From Roseiflexus sp. (lineage in GTDB: Bacteria; Chloroflexota; Chloroflexia; Chloroflexales; Roseiflexaceae): 64,000 nucleotides of DNA. The position numbers were made by a program, and so were the translations under genes. Where the stretch lies: the NCBI GenBank assembly GCA_025062325.1, contig JANXAL010000116.1, positions 62,001 to 126,000 on the forward strand, read 5' to 3'. The notes beneath the pieces were generated by a model that did not search any database, was not told the origin of the DNA, and worked only from the letters and a program-made list of their open reading frames with translations. Positions 31,620 through 40,640 of the stretch are shown piece by piece (position 1 is the stretch's first letter; each line of letters starts with the position of its first letter).

Positions 31620-31696
31620 GGGCGATTAGCTCAGTTGGCTAGAGCGCATCGTTCACACCGATGAGGTCACTGGTTCGAGTCCAGTATCGCCCACCA
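31620..31696 (+). tRNA. tRNA-Val (anticodon CAC)
   Basis: Acceptor arms GGGCGAT and ATCGCCC pair perfectly. The D arm is GCTC...GAGC, the anticodon stem CATCG/CGATG encloses the loop TTCACAC with anticodon CAC (codon GUG), and the T arm is ACTGG-TTCGAGT-CCAGT. The discriminator A (31693) is followed by an encoded CCA (31694-31696). It has its own promoter and terminator. Confidence 0.97.
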
Positions 31697-31734: not shown

Positions 31735-32150
31735 TCTTCGGGACGCCTCAAGGTACATTGCTCCTTTTGGGCGCTAGAACGCTCCAATTCCCCCTTCTCC
31801 GCAAGCGGAGATTTTTTCAACAAGCCCTTACGCTGCATCGCCCCTTTCGGAGCCTTAGGATGCGCAAACTTCCCCTTCGCCCCCCAACCCCTTGCATGCG
31901 GGGGGCGAAGGGCATCGCGTCGCAGCGCGCAGCGCCGCGCGCTCCCAACCCCTTGCATGCGGGGGGCGAAGGGGGGGGGGGTGGGAGAAGGGGGCTGGAA
32001 GTATGAGGAGAACGAGGGCGTCAGGATGCGGCAAATCCGCTTCGCACCCTAAGAAGCCTACGCTTGAGAGGCAGGGGGGATGAGGGGACAAAGGGCATCA
32101 GGACGCGGCGAACATCCATCGCACCCGCTTGTGAGGAGAAGGGGGTCAGG
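31735..32150. repeat. 177-bp-family repeat block with duplicated inner palindrome
   Basis: Left-arm text (GCGGAGATTTTTTCAACAAG, GCATCGCCCCTTTCGGAGCC) is followed by an inner palindrome CCCTTCGCCCCCC/GGGGGGCGAAGGG (arms 31873-31885 and 31900-31912), whose central part CCCAACCCCTTGCATGCGGG is present again about 55 nt on, ending in an 11-G run (31971-31981). Then come right arms with GGCGTCAGGATGCGGCAAAT, AGAAGCCTACGCTTGAGAGG and a second copy to 32150. No gene in 31731-32262. Confidence 0.72.
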
Positions 32151-32632: not shown

Positions 32633-33268
32633 CTAGGGCGTCACTGGGACCAGATAGTCTGCTGCGGCCCACCCCTCAGCGCCTTCTGGATCGCGCACTC
32701 GTTTCCACACCCGATCCGGCTGCACCGAGTCCTCACCGACTACTGTCACGATCGTGCCTTCCGGCAGGGTTTTGATCGGGGTGTTATTCACATTAGGCGC
32801 CGGGCGCAGAAAAAGTCCAAGCGTACCAGTGCCCTGGACGCGCAACCGCGCATTAACCGGTGTCGTTGGCGTCAGCGCAAGGGTCGAGGTGAGCGGAGCC
32901 GCAGTGACGGTCGGCTGCTCGGGCAGTGGCGTCAACACAATTGGCGGTCGCGATTCCTCGAGAATGACACGAGGAGGCAACGGTTCGGGCGCATCCGCCT
33001 GACTCAGCACGAAGAGGGCCACCCCCACCAGCACAAGAGCGACCGCTGCCAGCACAAATTTCCATCCGTCATACTGGAGCCAGAGAACCACATCCTGAGC
33101 AAAAGATGCACTGCTGCGCGCCTGTCGCTCCGCAATTCTGGTACGGCGCCATGCCGGATTCACCGGCTTGGCATGGTCGTTGGGAAGCAGTCGCTCAGTA
33201 TCGCGTTGATCCCGGCGCAGCGAACGGGGCGAGCGCGGATCAAAGGGATCGCCGCTGTCGTGTTCCAT
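32633..33268 (-). CDS. Membrane-anchored SH3-like domain protein
   Basis: A 211-residue protein: charged cytoplasmic N-terminus (about 65 residues), one membrane segment (about 69-90, WKFVLAAVALVLVGVALFVLSQ), a Pro/Thr-rich linker and a C-terminal bacterial SH3 domain (about 138-208; LGLFLRPAPNVNNTPIKTLPEG...VWKRVRDPEGAEGWAAADYLVP). Such domains bind peptidoglycan or peptides outside the membrane. It is divergent to the kinase operon (start codons about 270 nt apart), which may or may not be functional. A good promoter lies upstream. Confidence 0.83.
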   Translation of the reverse strand: MEHDSGDPFDPRSPRSLRRDQRDTERLLPNDHAKPVNPAWRRTRIAERQARSSASFAQDVVLWLQYDGWKFVLAAVALVLVGVALFVLSQADAPEPLPPRVILEESRPPIVLTPLPEQPTVTAAPLTSTLALTPTTPVNARLRVQGTGTLGLFLRPAPNVNNTPIKTLPEGTIVTVVGEDSVQPDRVWKRVRDPEGAEGWAAADYLVPVTP

Positions 33269-33330: not shown

Positions 33331-33431
33331 ATGAGTCGATGATTGATTCACACCCCAGAAAGACCTATAATTGTAAACGACAGCGTGTCTCTCCCGGACA
33401 CGCCGACTCGCACATTCCTGCATCTGTCTTG

Positions 33432-33437
33432 TATAAT
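33432..33437 (+). promoter_or_regulatory. -10 element of the kinase operon
   Basis: TATAAT preceded by TTG, about 98 nt before the kinase ATG. No clear -35; a second TATAAT is at 33366-33371. Confidence 0.5.
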
Positions 33438-33535
33438 ATCGGGAGATTAACCGGTCGAGCGCGTATTGGCTCTCTCAGGCGCGCCTACTCGAGTTGCACG
33501 CACTACCCCACGATGGCTCGCTGCGGAGGAATGGT

Positions 33536-35500
33536 ATGGCGTTGATCAAGAAACCCGGCACGACCAAGGGCATCGATCTCAACTCGTCATCGTCGAATGC
33601 CGGGTCAGACCAGCAAGGAACCGCAACTCCTGGCGCCGGAGCGCACGCCGCTGCGCCGGTCATGCAGCCTGGCGTCATTCTCCAGGGACGCTACGTTATC
33701 GAAGGCACGCTGGGCATCGGCGGCATGAGCGTTGTCTACCGGGGACGCGATCTGCGTTTTAAGGATGTCATCCGCCCATGCGCCATCAAGGAGATGTATC
33801 AGAGCGCACCGGATTCGAATACGCGGTTGCTTAACCTCAAGAACTTCGAGCGCGAAGCCGGGCTGCTGGCAACCCTGCAGCATCCTGCAATTCCCAAAGT
33901 GTTCGACTTTTTCGAGGAGAATGGTCGAGTCTATCTGATTCTGGAGTTGATCCAGGGGAAGGACCTGGAAACCATTCTTGACGAAGCGAAAGGCCCGTTG
34001 CCCGAAGAACGAGTGGCGCGCTGGGCAGTGCAATTGTGCGAGGTGCTGTCGTATCTGCACAATCAGAAGCCAGAACCGATCGTCTTCCGCGATATGAAGC
34101 CCTCGAATGTGATGGTGACACCCGACGACCGGATTGTCCTGATCGACTTCGGCATCGCCCGCAGCTTGGCGCGTACCCGGGGCACCATCATCGGCACGGA
34201 GGGGTATTCGCCGCCAGAACAGTACAAGGGCATCGCCGAGCCACAGAGTGATCTCTATGCGCTCGGCGCTACGCTTCACCATCTGCTGACTGCCAGCGAT
34301 CCGCGCACCGAAACGCCGTTCACCTTCCACGAACGCCCGCTGCGCCAGTTGAACCCGCAGGTTTCGCCTGAACTTGCTGCGGTTGTCGAAAAAGCGCTGT
34401 CTTACGATATGAAAACGCGTTGGGCGTCAGCGGAAGAGATGCGCCTGGCATTGTTGCAGACGCCGACTCTGCGCGCCGGGCAGAGCGGAGGTATGGCGGC
34501 GGCAGGAAAAGTCGCGCTGCCGCGCGTCAGCAGCGTTGCAACCACCGAGCTGGTTTGGCGCTTCGTCTGTGAAGACGAAGTGCGATCCTCGCCATGCGTC
34601 AGCAACGGCATGGTCTTTGTCGGATGCTATGACACGAACCTGTACGCCATCGATGCCAGTCGCGGCGAGTTTCGCTGGAAATATGCCACCGAGGGAGGCA
34701 TTTCGTCGTCGCCAGCGGTGTGGAATGATATCGTCATCGTCGGATCAGAAGATGGCGCGGTCTACGCCTGTGATATCCGTCGCGGCACGCTGCGCTGGAC
34801 GTTTCGTACCGGCAAGCCGGTGCGCTCATCGCCGCGCGTGCTGGATCGCGTCATCTTTATCGGCTCAGACGACCAGCACTTTTACGCGATCGACGGGTTG
34901 CGCGGCGCGCAAATCTGGAAGTATCGCACGTGGATGCCGATCCGCTCATCGGCATGCATTGCTGGCGAGTCGGTCTACTTCGGCGGCGGCGATGGATTCG
35001 TCTATGCGCTGAATATCAAAAATGGCAGCGTGCGCTGGAAACAGCGCACGCAGCAGCCTGTCATTTCGTCGCCAGCATTCGCCGAGAACATGGTGATCGT
35101 CGGCTCGATGGACAACACTCTCTATGCACTCGATAGCGAAGGCGGGTGGCCCGTGTGGAAGTACCGCACGAATCATTATGTCAACTCATCACCGTTTGTC
35201 TTTGGCACGCGCGTGTTCGTCGGCAGCGTTGATGGCAATCTGTATGCGATTGAACTGAAGAATGGCAAACTTGCCTGGAAGTACGACACCGGCAGTCAGA
35301 TCACCTCATCGCCGCGCGTTGACCAGGGACGAGTGTACTTCGGCGCCGCCGATGGATGCGTCTACTGCCTCGATGCCGCCAACGGTGCGCTGATCTGGCG
35401 CTACGAGACGCAGGGACCAGTGGTATCATCGCCAGCGATTAGTGAGGGTATGGTCTACATCGGATCGCTCGATCACGCACTGTATGCCCTGCGCGCGTAG
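33536..35500 (+). CDS. Ser/Thr protein kinase with C-terminal PQQ-type beta-propeller
   Basis: A 654-residue protein. Kinase domain at about 50-325: glycine loop GIGGMSVVYRGRD, ATP-binding Lys85 (CAIKEMY), catalytic loop VFRDMKPSNVMV with Asp186 (His of HRD replaced by Phe), IDFGIARS with Asp204, and GTEGYSPPEQYKG. The C-terminal half (from about 345) is eight repeats of about 40 residues ending YAIDxxxGxxxWKY, as in PQQ/WD-like propellers of BamB type; the last strand (YALRA) can close the ring with the first (LVWRF). No membrane segment was found between the halves, so the propeller is cytoplasmic. GGAGGA precedes ATG 33536. First gene of a five-gene operon. Confidence 0.92.
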   Translation: MALIKKPGTTKGIDLNSSSSNAGSDQQGTATPGAGAHAAAPVMQPGVILQGRYVIEGTLGIGGMSVVYRGRDLRFKDVIRPCAIKEMYQSAPDSNTRLLNLKNFEREAGLLATLQHPAIPKVFDFFEENGRVYLILELIQGKDLETILDEAKGPLPEERVARWAVQLCEVLSYLHNQKPEPIVFRDMKPSNVMVTPDDRIVLIDFGIARSLARTRGTIIGTEGYSPPEQYKGIAEPQSDLYALGATLHHLLTASDPRTETPFTFHERPLRQLNPQVSPELAAVVEKALSYDMKTRWASAEEMRLALLQTPTLRAGQSGGMAAAGKVALPRVSSVATTELVWRFVCEDEVRSSPCVSNGMVFVGCYDTNLYAIDASRGEFRWKYATEGGISSSPAVWNDIVIVGSEDGAVYACDIRRGTLRWTFRTGKPVRSSPRVLDRVIFIGSDDQHFYAIDGLRGAQIWKYRTWMPIRSSACIAGESVYFGGGDGFVYALNIKNGSVRWKQRTQQPVISSPAFAENMVIVGSMDNTLYALDSEGGWPVWKYRTNHYVNSSPFVFGTRVFVGSVDGNLYAIELKNGKLAWKYDTGSQITSSPRVDQGRVYFGAADGCVYCLDAANGALIWRYETQGPVVSSPAISEGMVYIGSLDHALYALRA

Positions 35501-35571
35501 TCTGTGGCAGTCACGCTGCTGGACGACCCGACAAAGCATGGCACTGTGCTGCATTCGAAGGCAGGCATGCT

Positions 35572-36552
35572 ATGAGCGAAAACTCGCCACCTGACCAACC
35601 GCCCGCATCAATGCCTGATCGACCCGACACGGCATGGTGGTCTGGTAAGGGTGATGAGAGCGACGGCACCCGCCCGCTCGATACACGCTCGGTCATGGCG
35701 CAGGCGGATACGCCTGACCGCAGACCTGGCGCAACTGAGCCGCTTGAGGATGACACGACGCTGCGCGAAACCCCGCCGCCGCCGCTTGCGATTGTCGCTG
35801 CCGCGCTGCGGCACATCGGTCAGGTGCGCGAAACCAATCAGGACTCGATCTACACGCTGGTGAGCAGCATTCCGCGCGAGACGGGCGATGCTACGCTTGG
35901 GCTGTTCATCGTTGCTGACGGAATGGGCGGGCATGAAGGCGGCGAGGTTGCCAGTCGTATGGCAATCGCCACTGTCGCCCGGCGCATCATTGCCGATCTC
36001 CTCGTGCCAGCAATCGAGGGGACGATCAACGTCTCACTCCAGGCATTGATGGTTGAAGCGGTGCAGGAAGCCAACCGCGTCATCTGGGAGCACGCCCGGT
36101 TGACTGGATCGGATATGGGCACGACATGCACCGCAGCCTTGGTATTAGGCCGATCCCTCTATCTCGGTCATGTCGGCGACACACGCGCTTATCTTATCGA
36201 CGCTCACGGCATCCATCAGTTGACGACCGATCACTCAGCCGTCGGGCGGCTGATTGAGCTGGGGCAGCTTGACCCGACCGAAGCACGGGAACATCCGCTA
36301 CGTTCCCAGTTGTACCGCACCGTTGGGCAGCATCCGGAGATTGCGGTCGACCTGGTGTTCCAGCCAATAGGCGACGCCACCCATTTGCTCCTTGCCAGCG
36401 ACGGACTGTGGGGATGTGTGGAAGAGGCAACCATGGAGCGCATTATACGGACCATCGATAGCCCGCACCGCGCCGTGCGCGCTCTGGTTGATGCCGCCAA
36501 TCGTGCTGGCGGACCGGATAACATTTCAGCCATCCTTGTCCGGCTTGCTTAG
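35572..36552 (+). CDS. PP2C-family Ser/Thr protein phosphatase
   Basis: A 326-residue protein. After a disordered acidic N-terminus (about 75 residues) comes a PP2C domain with its metal-binding motifs: RETNQDS, VADGMGGHEGGEVAS, GDTRAYL, ASDGLWGCV and GGPDNISAILV. It should remove phosphate from proteins phosphorylated by the kinase encoded just upstream (71 nt). The set kinase-phosphatase in one transcript is the usual arrangement for reversible Ser/Thr signalling in bacteria. The next gene, a VWA protein, starts 19 nt downstream. Confidence 0.93.
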   Translation: MSENSPPDQPPASMPDRPDTAWWSGKGDESDGTRPLDTRSVMAQADTPDRRPGATEPLEDDTTLRETPPPPLAIVAAALRHIGQVRETNQDSIYTLVSSIPRETGDATLGLFIVADGMGGHEGGEVASRMAIATVARRIIADLLVPAIEGTINVSLQALMVEAVQEANRVIWEHARLTGSDMGTTCTAALVLGRSLYLGHVGDTRAYLIDAHGIHQLTTDHSAVGRLIELGQLDPTEAREHPLRSQLYRTVGQHPEIAVDLVFQPIGDATHLLLASDGLWGCVEEATMERIIRTIDSPHRAVRALVDAANRAGGPDNISAILVRLA

Positions 36553-36571
36553 AAAGAATGACAACAGACCT

Positions 36572-37849
36572 ATGACGCCAGGCATCAATTTGCAGCAGAC
36601 CCTGAGTCGAACGACGCTGGCAGTCAGTGATGAACCGCAGTTGATCTACGTGCTTCTGGAGGCGCACGCTGAAGGTCTGGCGCAGCAGTTGCCCAAACTG
36701 CCGCTGAATCTGTGTCTGGTGATCGACCGCAGTTCATCGATGCGCGGGGAACGCCTGATGCAGGTCAAGGACGCTGCAGCGCGGATTGTGGACCAGTTAG
36801 GGCAGGATGATTATTTTTCGCTAGTCGTGTTCAACGATCGAGCAGATGTGGTCATTCCGGCGCAGCGCGCCATCAAGAAGGCTGACATGAAAGCGGCGAT
36901 TGCGCAGATTGAAGCGGCTGGCGGCACCGAAATGGCGCAGGGCATGGCGCTCGCGCTCCAAGAAGTGCAGCGACCATTCCTGACGCGCGGCATCAGCCGG
37001 ATCATTTTGCTGACCGATGGCCGCACCTATGGCGACGAGAGTCGGTGTGTCGAAATTGCCCGCCGCGGGCAGTCGCGCGGCATTGGGTTGACGGCGCTTG
37101 GGATCGGAACGGAGTGGAATGAGGACCTGCTCGAAACAATGACCGCCAGTGAAAACAGTCGTGCGCAGTATATTGCCACGGCGCAGGATGTCGTCAAGGT
37201 CTTCGCCGATGAAGTCAAACGTCTCCATTCCATCTTTGCGCAGCAGGTGCACCTCTCTATCGAGACGCGCCCTGGTGCGCTGCTGCGTTCGCTTGATCAG
37301 GTGCGTCCGTTCATCGCTCCGATTACGATTGTCGAAGAAGCAGAACGCCGCTGGGCTGCCAACTTGGGAGACTGGCCCGATACCGGCGTGCAGGGTTTTC
37401 TGCTCGAAGTCGTTGTGCCGCCCCTGCCGATCGGCGATCATCCGGTGCTGAGACTGACCCTTCGGTACCACTTGCCAGGGGCGAATCTGCGCGATCAGTC
37501 GCGTGAACTCCTGGTTCGCGTCAGCATGCGCCCGGCGGAAGAAGTCGCTCATCACGTCGACGCTACCGTCAGGCACTGGCTGGAGCGCCTGGTGGCATAC
37601 CGGCTGCAGGCCAGCGCCTGGAAGCATGCAGCGGAAGGTCGGTTTGAAGAGGCAAGTGAGCGTTTGCAGATGGCAGGAACACGGATGCTTAACGTTGGTG
37701 ATACAGCCCTGGCGCAAACGCTGCAACAAGAAGCGACGCGCATCCTGCGCAATGGCACGGTGAGTGAAGAGGGACGCAAGCGCATTCGCTTCGGCACTCG
37801 CGGTCTGATGGGATCAGTTGCCAGCGATGATCGTGAAACGATGACCTGA
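36572..37849 (+). CDS. von Willebrand factor A (VWA) domain protein
   Basis: A 425-residue protein with a VWA domain at about 45-220 that has a complete metal-binding MIDAS motif, Asp52-x-Ser54-x-Ser56 in VIDRSSSM, plus GGTEMAQGM and LLTDGRTYGDE. The C-terminal part (about 240-425) is a beta-rich segment and a helical stretch (VRHWLERLVAYRLQASAWKHAAEGRFEEA). The VWA protein, PP2C and kinase together match the composition of TerY-P triads. The start is the ATG at 36572; an upstream frame overlaps the phosphatase gene. The 50-nt gap to the FHA gene supports cotranscription. Confidence 0.9.
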   Translation: MTPGINLQQTLSRTTLAVSDEPQLIYVLLEAHAEGLAQQLPKLPLNLCLVIDRSSSMRGERLMQVKDAAARIVDQLGQDDYFSLVVFNDRADVVIPAQRAIKKADMKAAIAQIEAAGGTEMAQGMALALQEVQRPFLTRGISRIILLTDGRTYGDESRCVEIARRGQSRGIGLTALGIGTEWNEDLLETMTASENSRAQYIATAQDVVKVFADEVKRLHSIFAQQVHLSIETRPGALLRSLDQVRPFIAPITIVEEAERRWAANLGDWPDTGVQGFLLEVVVPPLPIGDHPVLRLTLRYHLPGANLRDQSRELLVRVSMRPAEEVAHHVDATVRHWLERLVAYRLQASAWKHAAEGRFEEASERLQMAGTRMLNVGDTALAQTLQQEATRILRNGTVSEEGRKRIRFGTRGLMGSVASDDRETMT

Positions 37850-37898
37850 TGAACAGATGAGCGGGATGTTTCCATAGCGCAGGAATGGTAGTCCGCCT

Positions 37899-38420
37899 AT
37901 GATTGTCTGCCCAAACTGTTCTGCCAGACAACTCGACGGCACGATTTTCTGCGCCGAGTGCGGCGCAGATATGATCAACGCCGGTCCGCCCGAGTCAACG
38001 CGTGAACTCAATGTTGGCGCTATCGAAAGCCATGATCCCCTGCCTGCATCTGGTCCGCTGTCGGCGAATGACTCGCAGTCTATGCATATGGTCACGTTAG
38101 TAGTGGTGCGCAGCCGCCGTCGGATCGAGGTGGACTTAAGCGATGAGGTGCTCATCGGGCGCGCGGATCCAGCGCGCGGCATTATGCCCGATGTCGATCT
38201 TGGTCCGTTCGGCGGGTATGATGCAGGCGTCTCGCGTCGCCACGCTATCCTTTCGTATCGGGATGGGACATACCGCGTCGAAGACCTCAGCAGCGCCAAC
38301 GGCACCTTTGTCAATGGTCGCCGGATCGCGCCAATGTGCGCGACGCCGCTGCAGCACGGCGATGAGATTATGTGTGGCACCCTGCTGTTGCGTCTGGAAG
38401 TCCGTAATCGTCAGCGCTGA
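37899..38420 (+). CDS. Zinc-ribbon plus FHA domain protein
   Basis: A 173-residue protein: N-terminal zinc ribbon (Cys4, Cys7, Cys18, Cys21 in CPNC...CAEC), a flexible linker, and an FHA domain at about 65-168 with the phosphothreonine-binding pattern LIGRADPA, SRRHAIL and LSSANGTFVNG. FHA domains bind pThr peptides, so this is the probable reader of the kinase's mark or of an activation-loop phosphate on the kinase. Fourth gene of the operon; 12 nt before the last one. Confidence 0.92.
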   Translation: MIVCPNCSARQLDGTIFCAECGADMINAGPPESTRELNVGAIESHDPLPASGPLSANDSQSMHMVTLVVVRSRRRIEVDLSDEVLIGRADPARGIMPDVDLGPFGGYDAGVSRRHAILSYRDGTYRVEDLSSANGTFVNGRRIAPMCATPLQHGDEIMCGTLLLRLEVRNRQR

Positions 38421-38432
38421 AAGGAGCCAAAC

Positions 38433-38678
38433 GTGGCAAGAACCGTCATTTTGCACATTGCAGGTGAAGACCCGGTTCTGGCGGATATCGAGCAGGAACC
38501 GCAGCCAAGCGACATGTTCATCAAGGTTACGAATGTACGCAAACGTGACGGCAAAGACGTACCCTACCTGGCGCCTGGCGTTCAGAGCGTCATCTTCCCC
38601 TGGTGGCGTATTACGTTCGTCGAGATCATGCCGAGTGAAGAGGATCGCGGGACGGTCATCGACTTCTTCCGCACCTGA
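38433..38678 (+). CDS. Small protein at the end of the kinase operon, 81 residues
   Basis: An 81-residue protein without a family I know: MARTVILHIAGEDPVLADIE, then a mostly beta pattern (DMFIKVTNVRKRDGK, VQSVIFPWWRITFVEIM) ending RGTVIDFFRT. The GTG start at 38433 has AAAGGAG 7 nt before, and it begins 12 nt after the FHA gene, so it is certainly a gene. The compact beta build suggests a binding module; association with kinase signalling is inferred from position only. Confidence 0.8.
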   Translation: MARTVILHIAGEDPVLADIEQEPQPSDMFIKVTNVRKRDGKDVPYLAPGVQSVIFPWWRITFVEIMPSEEDRGTVIDFFRT

Positions 38679-38684
38679 AAGACG

Positions 38685-38721
38685 AAAGCCTGCTCTACGC
38701 CTCTCAAGGTGCAGGCCTTTT
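38685..38721 (+). terminator. Terminator of the kinase operon
   Basis: AAAGCCTGC pairs (one bulge) with GCAGGCCTTTT around a 17-nt loop, with a TTTT end. It lies 6 nt after the last stop codon of the operon. Confidence 0.65.
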
Positions 38722-38781
38722 GAGATACGAAGCGGGTTCTCCGCATTATGATGCCTGTTTTCGCTCTCACCCCCGCCCCTT

Positions 38782-39095
38782 CTCACAAGTGTAGATTTTT
38801 TTGGCACGCCCTTCTATTGCATCGCCCGTTTCAGGCAACCGGACGCCCAGACTCCCCCTTCTCCCCTTGTGGGAGAAGGGGGCAGGGGGGATGAGGGGAA
38901 AACGGGCGTCAGGACGCGGCAAACTCATTTCGCACCCGAAAAAGCCTCCACTTGAGAAGCCGGGGGATGAGGGGAAAACAGGCGTTAGAACACGGCAACC
39001 ATTTGTTGCGCCCTAAAAACTCCACGTCTGTGAGGCGCCTCTTTCCCCCGCTGCGGGAGAGGGGCGTGTTTTGTCGTCCTGATGCCTGAAACGAG
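38782..39095. repeat. Complete 177-bp palindromic element plus an additional right arm
   Basis: The clearest copy: left end CTCACAAGTGTAGATTTTTT (38782), GCATCGCCCGTTTCAGGCAA, central CCCCCTTCTCCC/GGGAGAAGGGGG (near 38855-38883), GGCGTCAGGACGCGGCAAAC, and right end GAAAAAGCCTCCACTTGAGA (to 38958), i.e. 177 bp with inversely related ends. A diverged second right arm reaches about 39040. No gene in the gap before the TPM gene. Confidence 0.8.
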
Positions 39096-40379: not shown

Positions 40380-40640
40380 TTCGAGGCATTAGGAAGCCAA
40401 AACGCTCCCCTCTCTCGCAGCATGGAAGAGGGGCAGCCCACAGGGGGGGATTTTTCCGAAAACGCCCTCGTGTTGCACGCTTGAGGCATCAGGACGCCCC
40501 GACTCACCCTTCTCCCCTGGTGAGAAAATGGGGCGGGGGGGAGGAGGAGAAAACCGGCATTGGGATGCCGAAAACGCCCTTCGCACCTGAAAACTCTACC
40601 CTTGAGGGTCGAGGGCAAACTTCGCAAAAAACCCTACCTT
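40380..40640. repeat. 177-bp-family element (diverged)
   Basis: Left end CACAGGGGGGGATTTTTCCG near 40438, GCATCAGGACGCCCCGACTC, central CCCTTCTCCC/GAGAAAATGGGG, and right part GGCATTGGGATGCCGAAAAC...CCTGAAAACTCTACCCTTGA ending near 40608 (about 173 bp). A further arm fragment follows up to 40640. Confidence 0.68.

Follow-up and report, generated by a model that had tools for sequence, protein, structure and literature searches.

A conserved kinase operon of Chloroflexota and its small last protein, predicted to adopt an Sm-like fold

The five-gene locus

We analysed a stretch of 64,000 nucleotides (nt) from Roseiflexus sp. (Chloroflexota; contig JANXAL010000116.1, positions 62,001 to 126,000), here referred to as the window, which belongs to a 4.7-Mb draft assembly. 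It contains an operon of five genes, encoding a Ser/Thr kinase fused to a propeller, a PP2C-type phosphatase, a VWA-domain protein, a zinc-ribbon/FHA protein and a protein of 81 amino acids (aa) (Table 1). The genes run in one direction with gaps of 71, 19, 49 and 12 nt, and their reading frames agree with those of the initial annotation, which had been made by a model from the letters and their translations. According to our analysis, this operon is most likely an ancient, phylum-wide phosphorylation switch of Chloroflexota.

Table 1. Features of the operon and its borders (window positions).
Feature	Position	Strand	Basis
Promoter-like TTGATT-17-TATAAT (predicted function)	33343..33371	+	Consensus scan
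Second TATAAT box	33432..33437	+	Sequence
GGAGG ribosome-binding site of the kinase gene	33525..33529	+	Sequence
Ser/Thr kinase with C-terminal eight-bladed PQQ-type propeller, 654 aa	33536..35500	+	Pfam, homologues, AlphaFold2
PP2C/Stp1-type Ser/Thr phosphatase, 326 aa	35572..36552	+	Pfam PF00481/PF13672; NF033484 just under cut-off
VWA-domain protein, 425 aa, metal site intact	36572..37849	+	Pfam, conservation in 72 homologues
Zinc-ribbon/FHA protein, 173 aa	37899..38420	+	Pfam, conservation in 74 homologues
81-aa protein, GTG start, predicted Sm-like five-stranded barrel	38433..38678	+	AlphaFold2, Foldseek, class genomes
Weak terminator-like hairpin, then CTTTT	~38683..38722	+	Fold

Conservation and linkage of the operon

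The 81-aa gene has 67 named loci with at least 5.2 kb of upstream DNA, and gene linkage was counted in these. A kinase-propeller gene lies upstream on the same strand in every one of them, and 58 hold the full order of kinase, PP2C, VWA, FHA and 81-aa gene; the 81-aa gene is therefore firmly part of the operon. The PP2C gene is lacking in three loci, and in six the kinase-propeller and 81-aa genes stand alone. Linkage of this kind is far stronger than chance proximity. The initial annotation had described a self-contained unit and had left it to a neighbourhood survey whether the five genes stay together in relatives and whether the last one is connected to the others; both hold true.

The complete order spans Chloroflexia, Anaerolineae and Ardenticatenia. 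In Thermomicrobia the locus consists of the kinase-propeller gene directly before the 81-aa gene, the other three being absent from it, and in two lineages (f49 and f23) and two other genomes the operon is split into two clusters, kinase-PP2C(-VWA) and FHA plus 81-aa gene. Within the class, 82 of the 83 genomes that carry the kinase-propeller also have the 81-aa gene, the lone exception (G138) being a genome whose contig stops soon after the PP2C gene. Of 150 genomes of the class, 95 carry the 81-aa protein, and so do 131 of a phylum-wide sample of 400. A scan of 84,980 species, one genome each, gave 97 relatives, and nearly all of the 80 that were kept are labelled Chloroflexota. A locus labelled as the cyanobacterium Pleurocapsa minor (L198) holds a complete Chloroflexota operon and probably stems from a mislabelled genome bin.

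In most pairwise comparisons the last protein also ranks first in conservation among the five, and it shares the top two places with the kinase-propeller in most of them. Identity to the Chloroflexus proteins, for example, is 78% for the 81-aa protein, 71% for the kinase, 58% for PP2C, 60% for VWA and 47% for FHA.

Kinase, phosphatase, VWA and FHA proteins

The domain identities first given to the four larger proteins agree with Pfam. In the kinase protein, Pkinase (about residues 45-310) is followed by a PQQ/BamB-type propeller (about residues 339-654). Comparison with 48 homologues shows no variation at K85, R185-D186, D204-F205-G206 or at the threonines T217 and T221 of the activation loop; the catalytic loop reads FRD, not HRD. 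The propeller, initially described as having eight repeats, forms eight sheets in the AlphaFold2 model (predicted local distance difference test, pLDDT, 88), the last blade being closed by the N-terminal strand 339-344.

The metal-site motifs of PP2C (DGMGGH and GGPDN) are conserved, as is the metal ion-dependent adhesion site (MIDAS) of the VWA protein (D52-x-S54-x-S56, T119 and D149; 72 homologues), whose C-terminal region of about 220 aa has no Pfam match. For the fourth protein Pfam found the FHA domain and, slightly under the cut-off, a zinc ribbon at the N-terminus. Across 74 homologues, each of the ribbon cysteines C4, C7, C18 and C21 is 97% conserved, and the phosphothreonine-site residues G87-R88, S112-R113, H115 and N134-G135 are conserved as well. 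No membrane segment was found in any of the five proteins, the highest mean hydropathy over 19 residues being 1.58 overall and 1.06 in the kinase, which is in line with the cytoplasmic location first proposed for the kinase-propeller.

The same genome holds a second cluster (contig C27, L113:2586-10018) with two PP2C genes and genes for kinase, VWA and FHA-type proteins. It contains neither an ortholog of the propeller-kinase nor an 81-aa gene, and its VWA protein is about 33% identical to that of the window. At another locus (L199:4406-5974) the VWA and FHA proteins lie in a single reading frame, either by natural fusion or by sequencing error, and this locus was not used as evidence.

The 81-aa protein and its predicted fold

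The initial annotation had listed the 81-aa protein as unknown, and it does match no family of Pfam, NCBIfam or PADLOC; what has changed is that a fold can now be predicted for this member of the operon, usually the most conserved. The consensus of 66 sequences reads (V/I)xLHxxxEDPxxAExxxxPxPxDxFIxxxNxRxRDGKxxxxL...xFPWxRITFxE...FFRx, with H8, P56, W57, R59, I60, E64 and R80 invariant and with a conserved stretch N34-x-R36-x-x-D39-G40-K41 and an F-F-R tail. AlphaFold2 (pLDDT 88.7) models a barrel of five strands (residues 3-9, 15-19, 29-37, 52-56 and 60-65), the last one preceded by a short helical turn. Every one of the best 50 Foldseek matches of this model in the PDB is an Sm/LSm protein (probability 0.97-1.0, E 0.03-0.16), and VIA-align gave a Z of 7.8 to a designed particle with an Sm-like fold, which the matching rows suggest to be 3by7, and of 7.3 to Lsm proteins. 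The prediction is thus that the 81-aa protein shares the fold of the Sm proteins, which bind RNA in eukaryotes and archaea. Judged by strand order, the invariant P23 would lie at the site of the Sm ligand loop L3, and P56-W57-x-R59-I60 would lie at L5.

Several results weigh against this prediction. No Foldseek E-value for the Sm-like fold is below 0.001, and VIA Z-scores below 8 lie in a range where common arrangements turn up too. Two comparisons of the family with Sm proteins by hhalign found no relation (probability 0.2%), which is a weak negative because the Sm comparison alignment was approximate in part (AF-Sm1 letter-exact, the M. thermautotrophicum protein taken partly from a hit, the rest approximate). 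None of 66 family members matched the LSM or Hfq models of Pfam at E up to 1, and an hmmsearch of the PDB with the family found nothing for Sm ancestry. The model has no N-terminal helix before strand 1, which starts at residue 3. The core is acidic, with a mean charge of -2.4, which speaks against a binding of nucleic acids. FlgV of Borrelia, formerly annotated as Hfq, has a different structure (PMC11607428) and is taken here as a warning example. A viral structure library gave many weak matches to uncharacterised phage proteins, one of them named Sm-like, and was of no use.

The 81-aa gene outside the kinase operon

Two lineages place the 81-aa gene in other surroundings. Lineage f33 keeps the gene, and no kinase-propeller was found in eight f33 genomes, which weighs against the 81-aa protein as a partner of the kinase module only; because the gene occurs there without any kinase-propeller, the protein has a role beyond this module. 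In 9 of 10 f33 loci the next gene downstream is topA, in the same orientation and at a distance of 35-113 nt. The 81-aa-type genes of the f33 loci L228-L233, L262 and L263 have a different C-terminal tail, EIDEDFLRRIRE. In all five f49 loci (L235, L243, L247, L248 and L257) a RecN-like gene (recN) is followed by the FHA gene and the 81-aa gene, with the NAD kinase gene (nadK) before recN where examined, and the kinase-propeller lies elsewhere in the genome together with PP2C and sometimes VWA. The topA and recN contexts hint at nucleic-acid metabolism, but either could be an accident of gene order.

These contexts bear on two alternatives. One is that the 81-aa protein only serves the kinase-propeller, as a small structural subunit or an inhibitor, and has no role that involves nucleic acids. 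Barrels of this size are frequently protein adaptors, and the pairing with the kinase-propeller in Thermomicrobia fits such a role, but the kinase-free f33 genomes with their link to topA do not, nor do f49 and f23, where the gene remains linked to the FHA gene instead of the kinase. We regard this alternative as possible, if rather doubtful.

The other alternative holds that the protein is an RNA- or DNA-binding regulator of Sm type under the control of the kinase circuit. No Hfq was found over the cut-off in 61 class genomes, so the 81-aa protein could possibly stand in for it. The predicted fold, the invariant residues at the putative ligand-loop positions, the conserved stretch N34 to K41 and the neighbourhood of topA in f33 and of recN in f49 are all consistent with this role, which the acidic core, the missing match to the Sm1/Sm2 sequence motifs, the lack of an N-terminal helix in the model and the potentially coincidental nature of both neighbours nevertheless render unlikely.

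Regulatory sites and flanking genes

The seven upstream regions that were compared all align at the TATAAT of the promoter-like site, and its TTGATT is present in most Roseiflexus copies. The second TATAAT box is kept in the Roseiflexus copies, but not in the more distant L128. The GGAGG of the kinase gene is conserved, before a conserved ATG. Upstream, a divergent gene (32633-33268, minus strand) encodes a protein that has a membrane anchor and a bacterial SH3 domain; since close Roseiflexus relatives have a gene of like size (207-212 aa) and orientation at this spot, there may be two promoters between the genes. Downstream, the initial annotation had placed a terminator. A hairpin does exist there, but it is modest (-16.2 kcal/mol, z -2.05) and not clearly conserved among the close relatives compared, so that its action as a terminator is plausible but unproven.

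For structured RNA near the operon, Rfam gave only a tRNA-Val at 31620. A GC-rich dispersed repeat lies on both flanks of the operon (31981-32127 and 38824-39014) and recurs farther downstream (40475-40617), its copies being 60-84% alike over about 60-120 nt.

Proposed function of the module

Five genes in fixed order, with intact catalytic and binding residues, no membrane segments and a tight linkage of the kinase-propeller to the 81-aa gene, form the basis of our interpretation. We consider it probable that the locus encodes a soluble module for phosphothreonine signalling that is conserved in Chloroflexota, with the Sm-like protein as a dedicated partner or output. The propeller would act as a sensor for a ligand or as a docking platform for the kinase, which may phosphorylate its own threonines (T217/T221 of the activation loop) and a partner within the module, and PP2C would remove the phosphorylation made by the kinase. 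The zinc-ribbon/FHA protein might read the phosphothreonine mark, as the initial annotation had stated more firmly; the conserved site residues stand behind this assignment, and the reading itself is putative. The VWA protein, which has a MIDAS metal site, could serve as a scaffold on which the complex assembles, and the 81-aa barrel may carry the output, be it as an adaptor or ring made of protein or by binding nucleic acids as a small protein. Most likely, the ancestral unit comprised at least the kinase-propeller and the Sm-like protein, and the other three genes were lost or split off in several lineages.

Modules of kinase, PP2C, VWA and FHA are recurrent in bacteria, and their outputs are seldom known. 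These domain sets are known already, as is the fusion of a kinase to a PQQ propeller; a text search of the literature found no paper on this operon. The module described here is retained throughout much of a phylum, always together with an unannotated protein that is better conserved than most of the other members; the family of this protein is new to Pfam and NCBIfam and present in about a third of the sampled Chloroflexota genomes. This component, possibly of Sm fold, is the interesting part and, being short and expressible, offers experimental access to the output of the module. Because an Sm-like fold is predicted, its target is now testable, with the concrete question of whether a Ser/Thr kinase circuit controls an Sm-type protein in bacteria without Hfq. 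If the activity of a bacterial Sm-fold nucleic-acid binder were indeed set by a dedicated kinase-phosphatase-FHA circuit in a class without Hfq, which at present seems quite unlikely, phospho-signalling would be wired straight to an RNA or DNA chaperone.

Comparison with known systems

The TerY-P triad of Anantharaman et al. (2012), as described in PMC11090510, consists of a TerY-like VWA protein, a PP2C and a kinase that carries a zinc ribbon at its C-terminus. The window operon resembles it in combining VWA, PP2C (PF00481/PF13672) and Ser/Thr kinase in one soluble operon. However, the kinase ends in an eight-bladed propeller and has neither zinc ribbon nor OB-fold, the zinc ribbon is found on the separate FHA protein, the VWA protein is twice as long and the Sm-like protein is additional. 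The VWA protein is 27% identical over 124 aa to the TerY-type VWA of plasmid R478, corresponding to the generic VWA core. TerY_C (PF15616) matches the R478 protein and none of the five proteins, and TerD (PF02342) is absent from the whole assembly, while control genomes gave matches. Membership in TerY-P is therefore rejected. Of the TerY-P composition seen in the initial annotation, the presence of kinase, PP2C and VWA stands, without TerY_C and without a zinc ribbon on the kinase; the absence of ter genes, noted there for the vicinity, extends for TerD to the entire assembly. In plasmid R478 (L289:39401-40441), TerY_C is fused to the VWA protein, not to the kinase as in the triad description of PMC11090510.

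A divergent TerY-P or Ter-type stress or anti-phage module with swapped parts would share kinase, PP2C and VWA with the window operon. TerY-P-like kinases fused to an OB-fold occur as stand-alone defence systems for which a link to nucleic acids has been proposed (PMC11090510), a parallel to the small barrel here, and PADLOC models (PD-T4-6 and mad6) match the kinase domain. These models are generic for kinases, though, and PADLOC gave nothing for the VWA, FHA and 81-aa proteins. Together with the missing TerD and TerY_C, a likeness to TerY that is confined to the VWA core, and a near-universal vertical presence within an order, unlike that of a patchy defence island, this makes such an origin very unlikely.

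Kinase, PP2C, VWA and FHA are also used together in the threonine-phosphorylation pathway PpkA/PppA/Fha of the type VI secretion system (T6SS), where PpkA carries the VWA domain (PMC1262709). In that pathway the VWA is part of the kinase and the locus is one for secretion, whereas here the genes are separate. Given this identical parts list, the module might regulate an envelope or secretion machine, as in T6SS or in the mycobacterial pknA/pknB-pstP-fha cluster. We hold this to be highly improbable, as all five proteins are soluble and the 15-kb neighbourhoods, compared by size, position and strand with few neighbours annotated, show no secretion or cell-wall gene as a constant companion of the operon. 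Among ten neighbours and partners named by Pfam, in the window and in other lineages, none is a T6SS gene, the neighbourhoods being otherwise mapped by size and strand.

The combination of a kinase and a PQQ propeller has been known since 2005 (PMC1262709). AfsK of Streptomyces likewise has a kinase domain followed by a PQQ-type propeller, but the NCBIfam equivalog NF053615 scores 233 bits here against a cut-off of 1300. The description of AfsK is not known to include the partners of this operon.

Sm, LSm and Hfq proteins, finally, are the closest putative counterparts of the last protein by its predicted five-stranded small barrel, the best 50 PDB matches of which are all Sm or LSm. The 81-aa protein differs from them in having no detectable sequence relation and no N-terminal helix, in the position of its gene in a kinase operon, and in motifs of its own: N-x-R-x-x-D-G-K, P-W-x-R-I and the F-F-R tail.

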